From Rhodospirillaceae bacterium (GTDB lineage Bacteria > Pseudomonadota > Alphaproteobacteria > Reyranellales > Reyranellaceae): 64,000 nucleotides of DNA. Positions within the stretch are counted from its first letter, which is position 1, and every line of letters begins with the position of its first letter. Both the position numbers and the translations under genes were made by a program. The notes below the pieces were generated by a model. That model saw only the letters and a program-made list of their open reading frames with translations, was not told where the DNA came from and searched no databases. Where the stretch lies: assembly GCA_009772935.1 (NCBI GenBank), contig WOUR01000017.1, forward strand, positions 62,001-126,000, in the 5' to 3' direction. Shown here one piece after another: positions 5,422 to 64,000 of this stretch.

Positions 5422-6663
5422 CTAGGCTGCCATCCTGCGTTCCTTGCTCGCCAGCAAGGCGGTGACGAAGGCGTTCCACTTCTTCATGCCCTCGCGTTTC
5501 TCGGGCATGTACTGCCAGCGATCGTAGTGTTTCGAGGACACATCTTGCAGCGTGTGGTTCTGCAAGCGGTCGCGGATTTCCTTCGATACTCCTGCCTTGC
5601 CCGCAAGCGTTTTCCACGTGCGCCGCAAGTCTCGGTTGGTGACGACGGGGATCACGCCGCGGCCGCGCTGCCGCCACATGAAGGCATAGAGCGTGCCGGC
5701 CGAGACGGGCCTCGTCGGGTCCATCGCCGATGGGAAAAACCAGCCGTGCTCGTTTGGCTTGATGGACTCCAGTAGGTCGGCCGCGAGATCGGGGACGGGA
5801 AGCGAATGGGGCTTGCCATTCTTTGTCTTCGACCAGTCGAGGATGCGCTCTTCGGCGTCCCACTGATCGACATGGAGTCGGGCCATCTCCTCGACGCGTT
5901 GGCCGGTGAGCATGAGGATACGAACGGCGCGGAGGTAGGGAGGGTGTACCGGCACGTCCGGGCATTCGAGCCACTTGTAGAGTTGCGAGAACTCGTCCTC
6001 GTCGAGCCAGCGCGTGCCGCGCACCTTCGGCTCGGTCGGGATGCTTGCGGCGGGGTTGTACGCGAGGCGAAAGCGACGGGGCGAGGCAGTGCGGTAGTCG
6101 TGCTCGGACTTTATTCCCCAGCTGTATGCGGAGCGGATGTATGAGCGGACGTGATCGGCCATGGAGCGCTTGCCGCGATCGTAGATCGGGCGGAGCAATT
6201 CGATAACCTCATCGGGCTCGATCTCGCGCGCCTGCCGATGACGGCCAAGCGTGTCAGCGATCTTGTTGAGGCCCTTCTCCGCGTCTTCCCACGAGGGCTT
6301 CCCCGCTTCCTTGAGTGCCCTCACATAAGCCTCGAATAGGTCGCCCACGCTGCCGGGCCGGGTGTCTCCAGCGATCTTGATGCTGCGCCCCTTCTGGATG
6401 ACGTTGGCGTAGTCCCGCTGGAAAATTTCGCGTGCCTGGGCGAGCGAAATGGATGGGTATGAGCCGAGCTTCTTCTTGGTCCGTTTGCCATCGCGCCACT
6501 GCTGCGCCATCCAGTCGGCCGTCACGCGCGTCGGCATGGGTTTCAACACCAGCACAAGCCGGCCGGTGCCGCGGCCCTCGCCATCAACGAGGCTCTCCTG
6601 AGTGCTGTCCAACTCGACCCGCTTCATGGCCTGCCGGATCGCTGCATCGGTAAGACTTGCCAT
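5422..6663 (-). CDS. Tyrosine recombinase / P4-type integrase
   Basis: A 413-residue site-specific recombinase. The N-terminal part resembles the DUF4102/P4-integrase arm-binding domain, the middle a SAM-like core-binding domain, and the C-terminal half the catalytic domain. Catalytic positions visible: Arg in TGQRVEEM, Lys in SKTKNGK, Arg in DLRRT, His in QNHTL and the Tyr nucleophile in KHYDRW. The box II position that is usually His (HDLRRT) is Arg here (NRDLRRT). The start is the ATG at 6663; a TTG 7 codons upstream has no ribosome site. It points towards the tRNA-like scar at 5349-5380, so it probably catalysed that insertion. Confidence 0.9.
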   Translation of the reverse strand: MASLTDAAIRQAMKRVELDSTQESLVDGEGRGTGRLVLVLKPMPTRVTADWMAQQWRDGKRTKKKLGSYPSISLAQAREIFQRDYANVIQKGRSIKIAGDTRPGSVGDLFEAYVRALKEAGKPSWEDAEKGLNKIADTLGRHRQAREIEPDEVIELLRPIYDRGKRSMADHVRSYIRSAYSWGIKSEHDYRTASPRRFRLAYNPAASIPTEPKVRGTRWLDEDEFSQLYKWLECPDVPVHPPYLRAVRILMLTGQRVEEMARLHVDQWDAEERILDWSKTKNGKPHSLPVPDLAADLLESIKPNEHGWFFPSAMDPTRPVSAGTLYAFMWRQRGRGVIPVVTNRDLRRTWKTLAGKAGVSKEIRDRLQNHTLQDVSSKHYDRWQYMPEKREGMKKWNAFVTALLASKERRMAA

Positions 6664-35479: not shown

Positions 35480-35890
35480 ATGAAGCTGGGATTGATGGCG
35501 ATGGCCGTGGTTGCCGTTGCGTGTGCGGATGCCCGTCCGGCGGTGGCGCAACAGACGACGCATGGCTGCGCCTGCCTTCACAACCAGACGCAGGCGCAGA
35601 TCAGCTATCGCTACAAGTGGGGAGAGGGCGAGTGGAAGACCATGCAGCTCAAGCCCGGCTACAAGAACTGGATCTGCTGGCAGTACCAGAACGGGCAAAA
35701 GAGCTCGCCGAACCTGCTCTTCCAGCTCGACGTCGACATGTCCAAGGGCAGCGCCTGGACGACCTACACCATCGCGCGCGTGCAGACCGTGGGCGCGAGC
35801 TGTGATGCGGTGGGAGCGGGCGGCCACTACAATGTCAGCTACCGGCCCAACACCAACAACACCTTCATCCAGGTGACGAAGCGTAATTGA
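35480..35890 (+). CDS. Secreted cysteine-containing protein of unknown function
   Basis: A 136-residue protein with a Sec signal peptide ending near PAVAQ. The mature ~110 residues contain four cysteines (GCACLHN, WICWQY, GASCDAV) and a beta-rich, aromatic composition (YRYKWGEGEWKTMQL). No family is recognised. The ATG at 35480 has GGGGGAG upstream. It stands between an SGNH-like gene and an amidohydrolase gene, with no clear operon link. Confidence 0.7.
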   Translation: MKLGLMAMAVVAVACADARPAVAQQTTHGCACLHNQTQAQISYRYKWGEGEWKTMQLKPGYKNWICWQYQNGQKSSPNLLFQLDVDMSKGSAWTTYTIARVQTVGASCDAVGAGGHYNVSYRPNTNNTFIQVTKRN

Positions 35891-50989: not shown

Positions 50990-52002
<1,013 letters not shown>

Positions 52003-52066
52003 CGCTGGTCCCTTTCGTAGATGGGGGACGCCGGCTAGAAGTCTGGCCCCAACAGGCGAGGCTCCC

Positions 52067-52348
52067 ATGTCAGAGGACAGCAAGAAGGCCGCGAGTGCGA
52101 TCCTCACCGAGAACGAGGAAGCACTTTTCCAGATCATGAAGATCGTCATCGCGACCGTCGCGGCGGGCGATCCGGTCAAGGGCAAGCAGCTGGACGAGCA
52201 ACTCACCTATCTGAAGAACGCCTTCTACTCGAACGGAAAGAAGAAGGCGGCGATCATGACGGAATCGATCCGGATCGCGTCATTTGCCTCCAGCCGCGAT
52301 GCCGCCCGTCTGGCAGGCTTGCGGGGAAGCCCGAAGGCGACCCCGTAG
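52067..52348 (+). CDS. Small hypothetical protein
   Basis: A 93-residue cytoplasmic protein, mostly helical with charged residues (NEEALFQIMKIVIATVAAGDPVKGKQLDEQLTYLK cut across helices). No signal, membrane segment or cysteine. The family is not recognised. It ends 10 bases before the tRNA fragment that marks the edge of the prophage, so it is the last chromosomal gene on this side. Confidence 0.6.
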   Translation: MSEDSKKAASAILTENEEALFQIMKIVIATVAAGDPVKGKQLDEQLTYLKNAFYSNGKKKAAIMTESIRIASFASSRDAARLAGLRGSPKATP

Positions 52349-52358
52349 TACGCACCGT

Positions 52359-52378
52359 TGGTGCCCCCGGCCGGACTC
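52359..52378 (-). other. tRNA 3' end (tRNA-Leu-like), att site at element boundary
   Basis: On the minus strand this reads GAGTCCGGCCGGGGGCACCA. It divides exactly into the end of a T-loop (GAGT), the T-stem 3' half (CCGGC), the acceptor 3' strand (CGGGGGC), discriminator A and CCA. The GCCCCCG acceptor partner implied is common in tRNA-Leu. No tRNA 5' part adjoins it, so it is the core left at one end of an element inserted in a tRNA gene. The orientation predicts that the intact tRNA lies at the element's right end, beyond base 64000. Confidence 0.8.
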
Positions 52379-52403
52379 CAAAAAGCCAGTAAAAGCGAGG
52401 CTT

Positions 52404-52655
52404 TCAAGACGCCTTGCGTAAATTCTGGGGAGTGAGCAGCGCGTCGACGGCGCCGATCGGGATCAGGCCGCAGCCATTCAGCTTCAGTTTTCCGGCGGCG
52501 ACGTAGTTCCGCACGGTCTTGGGATGGACGCCAAGGATCTCGGCCGCCTGCTTCTGGGTGACCTGCGTCGGCCTGGGATGCGTCTCGGCGTAGAGCTGCA
52601 CGGCTCGAGCTGCGATCCTGAGTTCGCGGTCGTCGGTCACGTCATGCGCAGCCAT
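52404..52655 (-). CDS. MerR-like helix-turn-helix protein, excisionase-like
   Basis: An 83-residue DNA-binding protein with a helix-turn-helix of the excisionase/MerR type (TQKQAAEILGVHPKTVRNYVAAGKL). It is the last gene of the minus-strand run, 25 bases from the tRNA fragment, a usual position for an excision or directionality factor. A role in excision is inferred from fold and place only. Confidence 0.7.
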   Translation of the reverse strand: MAAHDVTDDRELRIAARAVQLYAETHPRPTQVTQKQAAEILGVHPKTVRNYVAAGKLKLNGCGLIPIGAVDALLTPQNLRKAS

Positions 52656-56950: not shown

Positions 56951-57316
56951 CTACGCGGCCAGCGACTTCGCGAGGCTGCACACGGCATCGCGGTGCAGGG
57001 GCGACTTCAGCGCCCTGAAGTGCCGCGCCAGCGTGAGCATCCCGGGATCGACCTCGGGGGCGGCGACCTTCTTCGCGCGACCACCTTCCGGCAGGCCTTC
57101 GAAAAAGCTCGCGACCGGCACGCCGAGCGCCTGGGCGAACTGCCACATGCGGGATGCGCCGATGCGGTTTGAGCCCTTCTCGTACTTCTGGATCTGCTGA
57201 AAAGTGATCCCGACAGCCTGGCCGAGCTTCTCCTGGCTCATGCCGAGCAAGGTCCGCTGCTGGCGGATGCGACTGCCAACGTGCAGGTCGACGGGGTGCG
57301 GTGTGGTCTTCGGCAT
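56951..57316 (-). CDS. XRE-family transcriptional regulator
   Basis: A 121-residue regulator with a Cro/CI-type helix-turn-helix: GSRIRQQRTLLGMSQEKLGQAVGITFQQIQKYEKGSNRIGASRM (cut in pieces across helices 1-4). A linker and a short C-terminal helix follow. It lies in the middle of the early run and may act as a Cro-like repressor; the operators at 63903-63940 are possible targets (inference). Confidence 0.88.
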   Translation of the reverse strand: MPKTTPHPVDLHVGSRIRQQRTLLGMSQEKLGQAVGITFQQIQKYEKGSNRIGASRMWQFAQALGVPVASFFEGLPEGGRAKKVAAPEVDPGMLTLARHFRALKSPLHRDAVCSLAKSLAA

Positions 57317-57692: not shown

Positions 57693-58616
57693 TTAAGCGT
57701 CCTGCAGCGCCTTCAGCTTCGCGGCGACGGCTTCATTGACCTCCTTGAACAGCTCCGGCCGCTTGTCCTTCAGCCAGGCCAGCTGCTTCGTCTCGGTCTC
57801 GCCGGCATGGGCATTGAGCAGCTCGGTTTCGTCGGCGGCCTTGTTGGCGGCGTCGATCAGGGCCTTGGCGGCGGCCGTCGCGCGGTCGACGACCTCGTCA
57901 CCGCGCGCCCACGCAGCCAGAGCAGCCCCGGCTTCCTCGGTGATGTGCTTGCCGTCGGGGAAGAACGCGAGATGCTGCTCCTGGATCTTGCAGGGCAGGT
58001 TGTGATTGACCCGGCCCGGCGCCTCATTGGACAGCGTGAGCATGGTCGTCAGTTCGAACATGAACCGGGAGTCGCCGATCGGCATCCAACCCTGCGATTC
58101 CGGCCGGCCGCCGGCGCCGACCTTCACTTTCTCCTCGGCGCGGAAACAGAACACGAGCGGGATGCGCCGTGTAAGGAACGACGAGATCATCGCCTTGTGC
58201 GCGCCCTTGGGCTTGATCCAGCCCTGCATGTTCTTCTTCGGATCGTCGCCCGCGATCTCGTCATGCCAGGACAGCACGCCGCCTTCGCCGGCCCATTCGT
58301 GCGTCATGGAGTCGATGACGCAGACCGCATAGCCAGCCCGCTCGGCATCCTCTGCGGCCTTCGCGAAAAGATGCGGGCGGAACGGCGGCACCAGATCAGC
58401 AACATCGAACTGAAACCGGTCGGAGTAGTGCGACATCCGACGCGCCTCGGTGTCGACGGCGGCGATCTTGCCGTTCGGTCCGGCGATCCCGCGAGCGATG
58501 CGCAGCGCGGAGAACGTCTTGCCGCTCCCGGTGCCGCCAGCGACGCCGACGAAGAGGCCGACGCCCTGGCGCTTGGCAGGGGCGAAGGTGAGGGGCTGGA
58601 TGTGGGTGTCGGGCAT
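57693..58616 (-). CDS. Phage AAA/Sak4-like ATP-binding recombination protein
   Basis: A 307-residue ATPase. Walker A is GGTGSGKTFSALRIARG and Walker B is AVCVIDSMTHEW. The size and pattern match AAA_24/Sak4-type single-strand annealing or strand-exchange proteins of phages. The gene next to it is a Rad50-like ATPase, and a RecE-like nuclease follows, making a recombination cassette. A helical C-terminal ~80 residues follows the core. Confidence 0.78.
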   Translation of the reverse strand: MPDTHIQPLTFAPAKRQGVGLFVGVAGGTGSGKTFSALRIARGIAGPNGKIAAVDTEARRMSHYSDRFQFDVADLVPPFRPHLFAKAAEDAERAGYAVCVIDSMTHEWAGEGGVLSWHDEIAGDDPKKNMQGWIKPKGAHKAMISSFLTRRIPLVFCFRAEEKVKVGAGGRPESQGWMPIGDSRFMFELTTMLTLSNEAPGRVNHNLPCKIQEQHLAFFPDGKHITEEAGAALAAWARGDEVVDRATAAAKALIDAANKAADETELLNAHAGETETKQLAWLKDKRPELFKEVNEAVAAKLKALQDA

Positions 58617-60040: not shown

Positions 60041-61000
60041 TCAGGCGGCCTTGTCGGCATCGAGCGGGCGCTGCCAGTGTGAGATGCGGTTCTTCATCCG
60101 CATCCTGGCCAGTTCGCCGGCGGTGGAGCGCCATACCGGCGGATCGATGTCGACGATCTCGCCCTCGTAGAACGGCCAGTGCTCCAGTGCGGTGCCTCGC
60201 GCGAGGCATTGGCCCCAAGTCTCGATCGCCAGCGCGACGGACTCCTGCGCTTCCTCGCGGGTCTGGCCGCTGGACCGGCAGAGCTGCACGGCGCAGGGCT
60301 CGTCCTGCTCGATGACGACGAACACGAAGTCGATCGTTCGCGCCTCCGGGATCAGCTTCTTGATGCCGCGCCGATAGAGCGCGTCCTGAATGTCGCCGCC
60401 GAAGTCGAACATCGTGCGCGACCAATCTTCGGCCTTGGCGCTCTGTCCCGTCGTCTTGAGATCTAACACGGTGATGTGGCCGCCCTCGCGCGCGGCATGG
60501 GGCAGCCAATCGATCCGCATCTTGCACCAGACGCCGTTCGCCTCCTGCCAGATGCCGGTGACCTCGGCGTCGCCCTTGTCGGCACCGATCAGGTGAGCGA
60601 TCGGCGAATCGGCCAGACGGCGACGGGCCGCCTCGGCAATGACCTCGGCTCGGTCCATTTCCTTGCCGAGCAGGGGCGTCGCGCCTTCAGCGATGGCGGC
60701 GTCTCGCGCCGCCCGCGCCGCGTTCGTGCGGTAGTCATCGAAGTTGAGCACCTTCAGCGGCCGACCCTTGCCTAGGATCAGCTTGTGCACGGCCGTCCCC
60801 ATGCCCTGCGTCTTGGTCGACTGCTCGACCTCGAGCGCCTTGGACTTGTTGAGGTCAGGATGTCCCCACCAAGCATGCCCCGGCGACTGATTGATCAGCA
60901 CCTTGGTGATTGAAGACGAGAGTGGCGGCTTCGGGGTGAGCCCGGCGCCGTGATAGGCCTTCTCCGGGATGTCGAGATACAGGCCGGGTTTGTCGATCAT
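60041..61000 (-). CDS. RecE-like PD-(D/E)XK exonuclease (DUF3799)
   Basis: A 319-residue nuclease. The N-terminal LYLDIPEKAYHG ... LSSSITKVLINQSPGHAWWG is the DUF3799/RecE opening. The catalytic DLKTT (~residue 180) with an Asp in MRIDW upstream is the PD-(D/E)XK core. It makes 3' single-strand tails for recombination, with the annealing/strand-exchange ATPase encoded downstream. ATGA coupled with the small gene before it. Confidence 0.9.
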   Translation of the reverse strand: MIDKPGLYLDIPEKAYHGAGLTPKPPLSSSITKVLINQSPGHAWWGHPDLNKSKALEVEQSTKTQGMGTAVHKLILGKGRPLKVLNFDDYRTNAARAARDAAIAEGATPLLGKEMDRAEVIAEAARRRLADSPIAHLIGADKGDAEVTGIWQEANGVWCKMRIDWLPHAAREGGHITVLDLKTTGQSAKAEDWSRTMFDFGGDIQDALYRRGIKKLIPEARTIDFVFVVIEQDEPCAVQLCRSSGQTREEAQESVALAIETWGQCLARGTALEHWPFYEGEIVDIDPPVWRSTAGELARMRMKNRISHWQRPLDADKAA

Positions 61001-63321: not shown

Positions 63322-63542
63322 GCCGCCACTCCCGCCGCCGCTACCGGCAGCATCTTGTCGGAAGCGTCGGCGGCCTCGTACAGCGCGTTCGCCATGGCGC
63401 GGGCTTCGGTGGCCGGCATGTCGAGGCTCGTCATCACGCCGCCGCTGATGTGCCCGATCGCCAAGGCGACGCGGTCCGCATGTGCCGGGAACGCGATGCC
63501 ATCGGTCCTGCCAATGGTGAACCGGAAGATCGGCTTGCTCAC
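63318..63542 (-). CDS. Small phage protein
   Basis: A 74-residue protein (MSKPIFRFTIGRTDGIAFPA, then a helical EARAMANALYEAADASDK). Overlaps both neighbours by four bases. No family recognised. Confidence 0.6.
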   Translation of the reverse strand: MSKPIFRFTIGRTDGIAFPAHADRVALAIGHISGGVMTSLDMPATEARAMANALYEAADASDKMLPVAAAGVAA

Positions 63543-63787
63543 GCCGCCGCCCCGTCGCGCGAGTACACCAGCCGCAGCCTCGGGTTCACCGGCAGCCGAA
63601 CCGCCATCGGCAGCGCCCGCTCGACGGACAGGTGCGCCACCCGCACCGGACGCGGACGGGCCTCGCCATCGAACTGGACGCTTGCCAGCGGGATGCCGCC
63701 GGCCTCGAGCAGCTCAAGCACCTTGCCGCGGCCGTAGCTGACCGGGCCGTGGTGGATGACGATGGTGCCCTTGGTGATATCGGACAT
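63539..63787 (-). CDS. First gene of the leftward run, hypothetical
   Basis: An 82-residue basic, beta-rich protein (MSDITKGTIVIHHGPVSYGR ... RLRLVYSRDGAAA). It is the first gene after the operator/promoter region and has GGGAGGG just upstream of its ATG. No family recognised; its position is that of an early leftward phage gene. Confidence 0.62.
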   Translation of the reverse strand: MSDITKGTIVIHHGPVSYGRGKVLELLEAGGIPLASVQFDGEARPRPVRVAHLSVERALPMAVRLPVNPRLRLVYSRDGAAA

Positions 63788-63897
63788 GCTGCCCTCCCGG
63801 AGCGGGGGACCGGCGCTGTGGGGCAGACGCCGGTCCGTGTGTCTCGCTCGCTCCGGGTGCGGCCCGGCCCGTGTCTGCGTGGTGCAGGACGGGTGGA

Positions 63898-63926
63898 AAC
63901 GTACGCAAAATGCGTTCGACGGTCAA
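63898..63926 (-). promoter_or_regulatory. Leftward early promoter
   Basis: Minus strand: TTGACC (-35, 63926-63921), 17-base spacer, TACGTT (-10, 63903-63898). It precedes the first gene of the leftward run. One operator-like copy lies inside the spacer and another just upstream of the -35 box, so a bound repressor would block polymerase. Confidence 0.75.
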
Positions 63927-63940
63927 ACGCAAAATGCGTT
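63903..63940. promoter_or_regulatory. Two identical 14-base operator-like sequences
   Basis: ACGCAAAATGCGTT occurs at 63903-63916 and again at 63927-63940, 24 bases apart. Each contains the inverted repeat ACGCA-AAA-TGCGT. Paired identical dyads over divergent promoters are the usual binding sites of phage CI/Cro repressors. Confidence 0.75.
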
Positions 63941-63951
63941 CCATGCGGCCC

Positions 63952-63957
63952 TATAGT
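63952..63957 (+). promoter_or_regulatory. Rightward -10 box (TATAGT)
   Basis: A TATAGT hexamer faces right, 17 bases before the ATG at 63974. The expected -35 zone (about 63929-63934) falls inside the second operator-like copy. No good -35 match is visible, so the promoter may depend on an activator. Confidence 0.45.
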
Positions 63958-63973
63958 TCGCGGGGAGGCTCCA

Positions 63974-64000
63974 ATGCGGATTTCTGCGACTGGTTTATTG
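63974..64000 (+). CDS. Start of a rightward gene, cut by window edge
   Basis: ATG 63974 with a strong GGGGAGG ribosome site (63962-63968). Nine codons are visible (MRISATGLL). Position suggests the divergent repressor or regulator gene of the element, but too little is present to identify it. Confidence 0.55.

Follow-up and report, generated by a model that had tools for sequence, protein, structure and literature searches.

A probable left operator with two sites in the lambdoid immunity region of an alphaproteobacterial prophage

In phage lambda, the gene of the S24-type repressor lies between two operator sets, with PL and PR as the early promoters, and the recombination genes are found to the left and the replication genes to the right. 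As a norm, Cro and the repressor share these operators. The two sets, which are about 2.3 kb apart, are joined by CI in a loop, according to a paper on lambda (PMC5880393). Among the closest described arrangements is also the immC region of Rhizobium phage 16-3 (DQ500118), where, as in the prophage described here, the annotated c repressor gene is situated between OL and OR with two operators each. At PL of 16-3, the -35 box (35641-35646) is adjoined by one operator (35646-35657), and the spacer between it and the -10 box (35618-35623) is taken up by the other (35629-35640); at PR, OR1 immediately precedes the -35 box and OR2 overlaps the -10 box. The 16-3 operators are of the ACAA...TTGT type and 12-14 bp long, with N4 at OL and N6 at OR, one end of OR1 reading TTGA. 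For these sites the names oL1, oL2, oR1 and oR2 are used in a 2025 paper on phiLM21-like prophages of Sinorhizobium, whose authors report that such prophages have no operators identical to the lambda or 16-3 ones and leave open which operators these prophages use (PMC12429752). Control sites of the family described below were not found in literature searches for such prophage operators, and the 13-mer ACGCAAAATGCGT occurred in none of the papers searched.

The segment 63898-63940 of the window, that is, of the whole analysed stretch of 64,000 nucleotides (C109:62001-126000), is highly likely to constitute OL and PL of a lambdoid prophage, with two repressor operators placed over a leftward early promoter. 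Features beyond the right end of the window are given in the frame of locus L005 (C109:124001-144000), in which position 2000 equals window position 64000. The elements read in and beside this segment are the following:

63898-63903, minus strand: presumed -10 box of PL, TACGTT, 17 bp from the -35 box, a weak match to the consensus
63902-63916, no strand: putative operator OL2, TACGCAAAATGCGTT, which fills the PL spacer and reaches into the -10 box, with an exact 14-mer
63921-63926, minus strand: presumed -35 box of PL, TTGACC, with TTGAC at the same place in 24 of the 24 PL twins compared
63926-63940, no strand: putative operator OL1, the palindrome AACGCAAAATGCGTT, which adjoins the -35 box of PL, an exact match whose position and geometry are kept in relatives
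63952-63957, plus strand: rightward -10-like TATAGT without a recognisable -35 box, the expected place of which falls inside OL1

The 14-mer ACGCAAAATGCGTT is present exactly at 63903-63916 and 63927-63940 (both plus strand), and each copy forms the core of a 15-bp palindrome AACGCA-N3-TGCGTT (AACGCA-AAA-TGCGTT), the first A of which is replaced by T in the left copy. The computed distance between the two operators, 24 bp from start to start, recurs in 20 of 24 PL twins. Hence, the two identical repeats that the preliminary description of this DNA had reported are confirmed as exact copies, and the elements of the leftward promoter, TTGACC and TACGTT at a distance of 17 bp, stand as it had placed them, with one repeat in the spacer and the other beside the -35 box. 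A consensus scan for sigma-70 promoters does not include PL in its list, the -10 box being poor, and the scores of PL and PR both fall below that listing. The rightward start given in the preliminary description fared less evenly: the TATAGT, a GGGGAGG ribosome site (63962-63968) and an ATG at 63974 exist, but the same scan lists no rightward promoter at 63952-63957.

What defines the segment as a left operator is a second pair of the same operator to the right of the window, on the far side of a repressor gene. Between the two pairs and directly beyond them lie:

63974-64000, plus strand, continuing to L005:2442 (L005:1974-2442): rightward ORF, with its frame broken at a six-G run at about L005:2056
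L005:2616-3581, minus strand: gene of a putative accessory protein of 321 aa, directly 3' of the repressor gene and codirectional with it; hydrophobic stretches are visible by eye
L005:3630-4331, minus strand, outside the window: probable repressor gene, encoding an N-terminal HTH and a C-terminal Peptidase_S24 domain
L005:4347-4385 (C109:128347-128385), outside the window: putative OR/PR operator pair, with the same 24-bp spacing as OL
L005:4396-4641, rightward: Cro-like HTH gene, the first gene right of OR

From start to start, the right pair is 2,445 bp away from the left one; it sits between the leftward repressor ORF and the rightward small HTH ORF, so that two pairs of one operator flank an S24 repressor gene, as the OL and OR sites do in lambda-type regions. 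On this arrangement, 63898-63940 is taken to be the left operator and not the cI/cro switch itself. The lysis-lysogeny switch that had been proposed for it is borne out insofar as the repeats are very probably paired phage operators of that circuit, but the cI/cro switch proper lies 2.4 kb to the right. The same order was encountered in the IMG/VR contigs 3300042386_001304 (L006) and 3300042510_001118 (L007), which were found by protein alone: their repressor is 72% identical, and one pair precedes and one follows its gene, with operators of the A type (see below) and 24-bp spacing. The OL-OR distance in these contigs is 805 bp, without accessory genes, as opposed to 2,445 bp in the source prophage.

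Leftward, the circuit would run from PL/OL through an early operon with recombination genes to an excisionase candidate, the members recognised in the window being:

63539-63787, minus strand: first ORF of the predicted PL operon, 82 aa, no Pfam or PHROGs match
60041-61000, minus strand: exonuclease VIII-like recombination gene, PL operon (PHROG_412, E 1.2e-54)
57693-58616, minus strand: AAA ATPase of a phage family of unknown function, PL operon (PHROG_1366, E 3.3e-58; Pfam AAA_24 just above cut-off)
56951-57316, minus strand: XRE/HTH_3 protein of 121 aa, PL operon (HTH_3, E 1e-13; no Peptidase_S24 match)
52404-52655, minus strand: small HTH_17/MerR-like gene near the left end of the prophage, excisionase candidate (HTH_17 above cut-off)

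Rightward from OL, it would comprise the two accessory genes, the minus-strand repressor gene, OR/PR, the Cro-like gene and the genes for replication, packaging and tail. Right of the Cro-like gene, the rightward genes include those of an HNH endonuclease, a DNA methyltransferase, a replication O-like protein, the terminase large subunit, a head protease, a tape measure and tail fibre J-like proteins; as predicted from these matches, the gene order is that of a lambda-like prophage. The product of 52404-52655 is regarded as an excisionase candidate since it is 73.6% identical to that of the gene preceding the integrase in L006 (PF00589, E 4.2e-18), and among PHROGs a MerR-like family ranks first, a terminase small subunit second and the excisionase PHROG_66 third (E 7.5e-06). 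Whereas the PF00589 integrase follows the excisionase candidate in L006, searches showed none next to the left end of the source prophage, so that its intactness is not certain. The source genome yields 11 tyrosine and 2 serine recombinase matches, one of which is located on the same contig at about 5554-6012 of the window, 46 kb left of the left end. At 52000-52410 of the window, the excisionase candidate adjoins what read as host transporter genes. A search of Rfam over L005:1400-5300 returned no family and only two sub-threshold matches.

Compared with the described systems, the source prophage shares with 16-3 the two-plus-two operators with one site in the promoter spacer, and the anatomy of PR is likewise the same in both. 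The operators themselves read ACGCA-N3-TGCGT and are thus not of the ACAA...TTGT type, and the former motif is not enriched in the 50 of 60 kb of 16-3 that were searched (29 found against 39 expected). Operator spacing in 16-3 amounts to 17 bp at OL and 26 bp at OR, in contrast to 24 bp at both in the source prophage, and the two repressors align in their S24 part alone (27% over 83 aa; hhalign probability 85%). Because the operators differ and only the S24 part aligns, the region would work like those of 16-3 and lambda without its repressor being a member of the 16-3 repressor family. Lambda differs by three sites per set, against two here, and by another operator sequence; since 16-3 also has two per set, the number of sites separates the source prophage from lambda but not from the wider kind. 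Taken together, there is good support for assigning the segment to a lambdoid immunity region of the two-plus-two kind as its left operator; the repressor and operator family of this region are newly assigned. Likely operators, promoters, a repressor and a Cro-like gene are thereby assigned for a prophage family, and the two-sided search for twin sites around a repressor gene could be tried on the phiLM21-like cases.

In the lysogen, each pair would be occupied at both sites by repressor dimers, which would block RNA polymerase, since one site abuts the -35 box while its partner covers the spacer and the margin of the -10 box. Upon DNA damage, LexA-like self-cleavage of the repressor would open PL and PR together, after which these operators would be bound by the Cro-like protein. 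Lying 2.4 kb apart, the OL and OR pairs would be suited to looping. A simpler view, that each pair acts only locally, by steric block of PL and PR and without any contact between OL and OR, comes close to an even chance. The operators overlap promoter elements, which could be enough for repression alone, and the distance from pair to pair varies between 727 and 4,047 bp across the 24 loci compared, which gives no hint of a constant loop length. It is by analogy that a loop is argued for, as the 2.4 kb between the pairs resemble the approximately 2.3 kb over which lambda CI loops its operator sets in the paper cited above (PMC5880393).

Under the OL/PL reading, the S24 gene L005:3630-4331 very probably encodes the repressor of both pairs. 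Its product matches HTH_31, HTH_3 and Peptidase_S24 of Pfam, all above their cut-offs, as well as the transcriptional repressor family PHROG_4 (E 3.2e-23), and its family profile aligns with LexA chains (E 1.8e-4 to 9.8e-4), which amounts to an HTH joined to a LexA/CI-type domain with predicted self-cleavage. The Ala-Gly in EVAAGQW, the serine in GNSM and the lysine in TAKR, which we take to be the catalytic residues of this self-cleavage, are shared by all 3 close repressors compared, of which two are near-identical. The structural model is of middling confidence (pLDDT 71.9, pTM 0.53); its top Foldseek matches are the 186 repressor (E 2.9e-05) and chains of the lambda repressor, at a TM of 0.27-0.35 of the query, and phmmer with the single repressor sequence matched no solved structure. 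Relatives at E <= 1e-12 are restricted to 1 of 75 family genomes, the source genome itself, none were confirmed in genome_contigs, and a 13-row profile finds matches in 13 of 76 genomes of the order. Moreover, 10 phage and 9 plasmid records contain relatives, all below 60% identity. The nearest repressors of named phages, the best of the 10 records, belong to the Synechococcus phages Ssp-JY40 and Yong-M3-232 (36% identical over 99%), where the homologues are annotated as HTH-XRE protein and repressor cI. Around a more distant S24 relative (33.6%) on a Methylobacterium currus plasmid, the operator site is not enriched.

The conservation of the twin operators was computed on viral contigs retrieved by protein. 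A search with an alignment of 13 repressors delivered the best 80 of 90 qualifying stretches (745,588 bases, mean 9.3 kb; the L006 and L007 contigs included), in which twins were defined by a spacing of 23-25 bp and up to 3 mismatches in zones from -200 to +30 and from +300 to +5000 relative to the repressor start. Twins on both sides were present in 23 of these 80 stretches, upstream only in 3, downstream only in 2 and on neither side in 52; no twin occurred in the 80 stretches outside the two zones and none in the reversed sequences, with L070 carrying one extra twin with 3 mismatches inside the downstream zone. Markov resampling gave 0 twins in 5 sets, compared with 52 real twins. The 23 two-sided loci include near-duplicates, and together with the source prophage the 24 loci comprise 21 distinct operator sets; the same contig was fetched repeatedly as L006, L014, L050 and L056, and likewise as L007, L020, L051 and L057. 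Given that 11 of the 13 alignment rows are repressors found through the operator, 23 of 80 is no free estimate of operator frequency, and the weight of the evidence lies with the second pair and with the difference between helix types, not with this share.

A strict twin pattern was in addition searched directly. In viral_contigs it retrieved 20 stretches, 16 with a repressor-like ORF and 14 with both pairs, against 4 stretches for the reversed pattern. In genome_contigs, 19 stretches were obtained, 6 of them with a repressor-like ORF and 2 more on the contigs of two of those, whereas the other 11 (including Clostridia, Streptomyces and Planctomyces) contain no repressor-like ORF in the stretch and look like chance or unrelated repeats. 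Among 385 genomes of the class, the source genome alone showed the pattern. Loci found by the operator are not independent evidence for it, in contrast to the 80 found by protein. Named members of the family are prophages of Methylobacterium, Lichenibacterium and Lichenifustis. In those of M. gnaphalii (L031) and M. fujisawaense (L032), an S24-like repressor gene is flanked on either side by twins with TTGAC between the operators, though the outer base pair of Methylobacterium operators is mostly T...A and not A...T as here.

The geometry is uniform throughout: among 48 twins, the spacing is 24 bp in 38, 23 bp in 9 and 25 bp in 1, and TTGAC lies between the twin operators at 24 of 24 PL and 23 of 24 PR sites, so that the operators overlap the predicted promoters, the -10 boxes of which are weak. 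The operator class, on the other hand, varies in its outer base pair, which is A...T in the source prophage and in L056/L057 and T...A in nearly all others. In the T-type viral loci, a third, weaker site resembling TTCGCANNNNGCGTT (1-3 mismatches) adjoins the OR pair at a fixed place upstream of it in 21 of 21, e.g. in L087, L091 and L065, but is missing at OR of L005, L056 and L057. The presence of the operator is furthermore linked to the recognition helix of the S24 repressor. Loci with the helix TYLGHENGD or TYLGYENGD (TYLG[HY]ENGD) have twins on both sides in 20 of 21 cases, those with TYADHENGH, the type of L056/L057 and the source prophage, in 2 of 2, and those with any other helix in 1 of 57, a group that includes the 3 of 80 loci without a readable helix motif. 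The overall contrast of 22/23 to 1/57 corresponds to a Fisher p of 2e-17, a value that ignores relatedness and comes from a test set up after the table was seen. L062 (TYLGHENGD), which lacks a twin, and L118 (TYLGHENGS), which has both, are the exceptions, and the 52 of 80 repressor homologues without an ACGCA operator on either side mostly possess other recognition helices.

A de novo search for twins was applied to the 74 of 80 loci with enough flank (22 two-sided and 52 others). It recovered 20 of the 22 and returned another matching twin on both sides in 8 of the 52, mostly TATGC-N5-GCATA with TTGAC between the operators, against 79 matches among 2652 in a cross-pairing control. Such twin classes other than ACGCA were noticed in L093, L106, L107, L112, L125, L132 and L133, and one with GATAC in L059; several of these loci are near-duplicates.

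A tentative reading of the helix types, on balance doubtful, is that within one immunity family the change from TYLGHENGD to TYADHENGH goes along with the swap from T...A to A...T and the loss of the third right site. Equally tentative is the view that this immunity family might be shared with phages of Methylobacterium and others. If true, the comparison of L058 (61% identical, T-type) with L005 and L006 (A-type) would be a natural record of a change of immunity class, and immunity groups would become readable from sequence. The link between helix and operator moreover leads to testable predictions as to which prophages share immunity.

The same link bears on the improbable alternative that the Cro-like protein is the main reader of the pairs and that the S24 protein has its targets elsewhere. 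In its favour, a comparable small ORF starts beside OR wherever its frame was called, and the model of the source protein is a five-helix HTH fold (pLDDT 90.4). The operator, however, tracks the helix of the S24 repressor (22/23 against 1/57; the helix on the Cro side was viewed in 18 selected rows), and operators common to Cro and repressor are what lambda would lead one to expect. By sequence, the Cro-like protein matches no Cro family, unlike lambda Cro, and no PHROGs entry, YdaS remaining under its cut-off (E 0.03). Xfaso 1 Cro and N15 Cro are among the PDB entries nearest to its model, none of which reaches E <= 0.001, and a VIA-align Z of up to 6.8 (HigA) reflects the common HTH arrangement only. 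The family alignment consists of 18 of 24 possible rows, leaving out the near-duplicates L057, L070 and L079 and the wrongly called frames of L066, L075 and L076; at E <= 0.01, YdaS is matched by 3 of these 18 members, Phage_CI_repr by 3 and P22_Cro by 2, with none for the source member. At L005:4385-4398 and the equivalent places, the start codon of the Cro-like gene is seen by eye to follow the presumed -10 box within a few nucleotides in most loci, which suggests a lytic mRNA that is leaderless or nearly so.

With the S24 protein as the repressor of the OL and OR pairs, the place between it and OL is left to accessory genes, as rexAB fills the corresponding place in lambda. These genes matched nothing in phages or viral_contigs: for the product of L005:2616-3581 no family, phage or viral-contig match was obtained, and its gene is found in 1 of 77 relative genomes, the source only. 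Judged by eye, the ORF at 63974 opens like a signal peptide. In Pfam nothing matched its first frame; its downstream frame reaches DUF6301 at E 0.022, under the family cut-off, and no PHROGs family, has no relative in viral_contigs or phages and is present in 3 of 77 relative genomes (the source and two of the same genus, distant). The frame break at the six-G run may be due to sequencing error, decay or phase variation. Since neither frame reaches a curated family, the gene looks like an accessory gene and not like a repressor.

The preliminary description had expected the repressor in this gene or in the XRE gene at 56951. Both choices are very probably wrong, the former owing to its broken frame and the lack of a DNA-binding family in either frame, the latter because of its place about 6.6 kb into the leftward operon, not near any operator of this type; it is thus very unlikely that the XRE protein represses these operators. 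Two findings had been named beforehand as speaking against the description, a divergent gene not encoding a DNA-binding protein, which is what Pfam and PHROGs searches indicate, and absence of the repeats from related prophages, which the twin-bearing viral contigs contradict. Accordingly little remains for a self-contained local switch, in which one of these two products would bind the pair: the pair does lie directly 5' of the 63974 gene with its good ribosome site, and 56951 encodes a genuine HTH protein, yet the former gene is broken, without a DNA-binding family and, in its downstream frame, without a viral_contigs relative; L006 and L007 keep the pair although only 40 bp separate the repressor stop from OL, a gap that leaves no room for the gene; and the XRE gene has no site nearby, whereas the second pair flanks the S24 repressor gene, so that this reading is scarcely tenable.

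Chance repeats were rejected on the exact counts in the genome, the relatives found by protein and the Markov resampling. In the 6.01-Mb source genome, the 14-mer has 3 exact copies, the third at C109:128372 outside the window, compared with 0 for its reversed control, and ACGCAAAAKGCGT occurs exactly at 4 sites, all of them in the two pairs; in view of these genome-wide counts, two exact copies at a distance of 24 bp are not attributable to chance. Looser criteria carry no such signal, as single sites of ACGCAAAAKGCGT with up to 2 mismatches number 133, little above the 103 of the reversed control, and copies of the 14-mer with up to 3 mismatches in the window, where 27091 (3 mismatches) is the sole other place, are at chance level (4 found against 3.45 expected).

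Finally, many of the PL leaders (e.g. in L066, L056 and L091; about 63790-63893 in the window) seem to start with a hairpin whose 3' arm contains the ribosome site. With assumed start points and related rows, 11 of 24 leaders fold below a z of -1.5, the mean z being -1.1.
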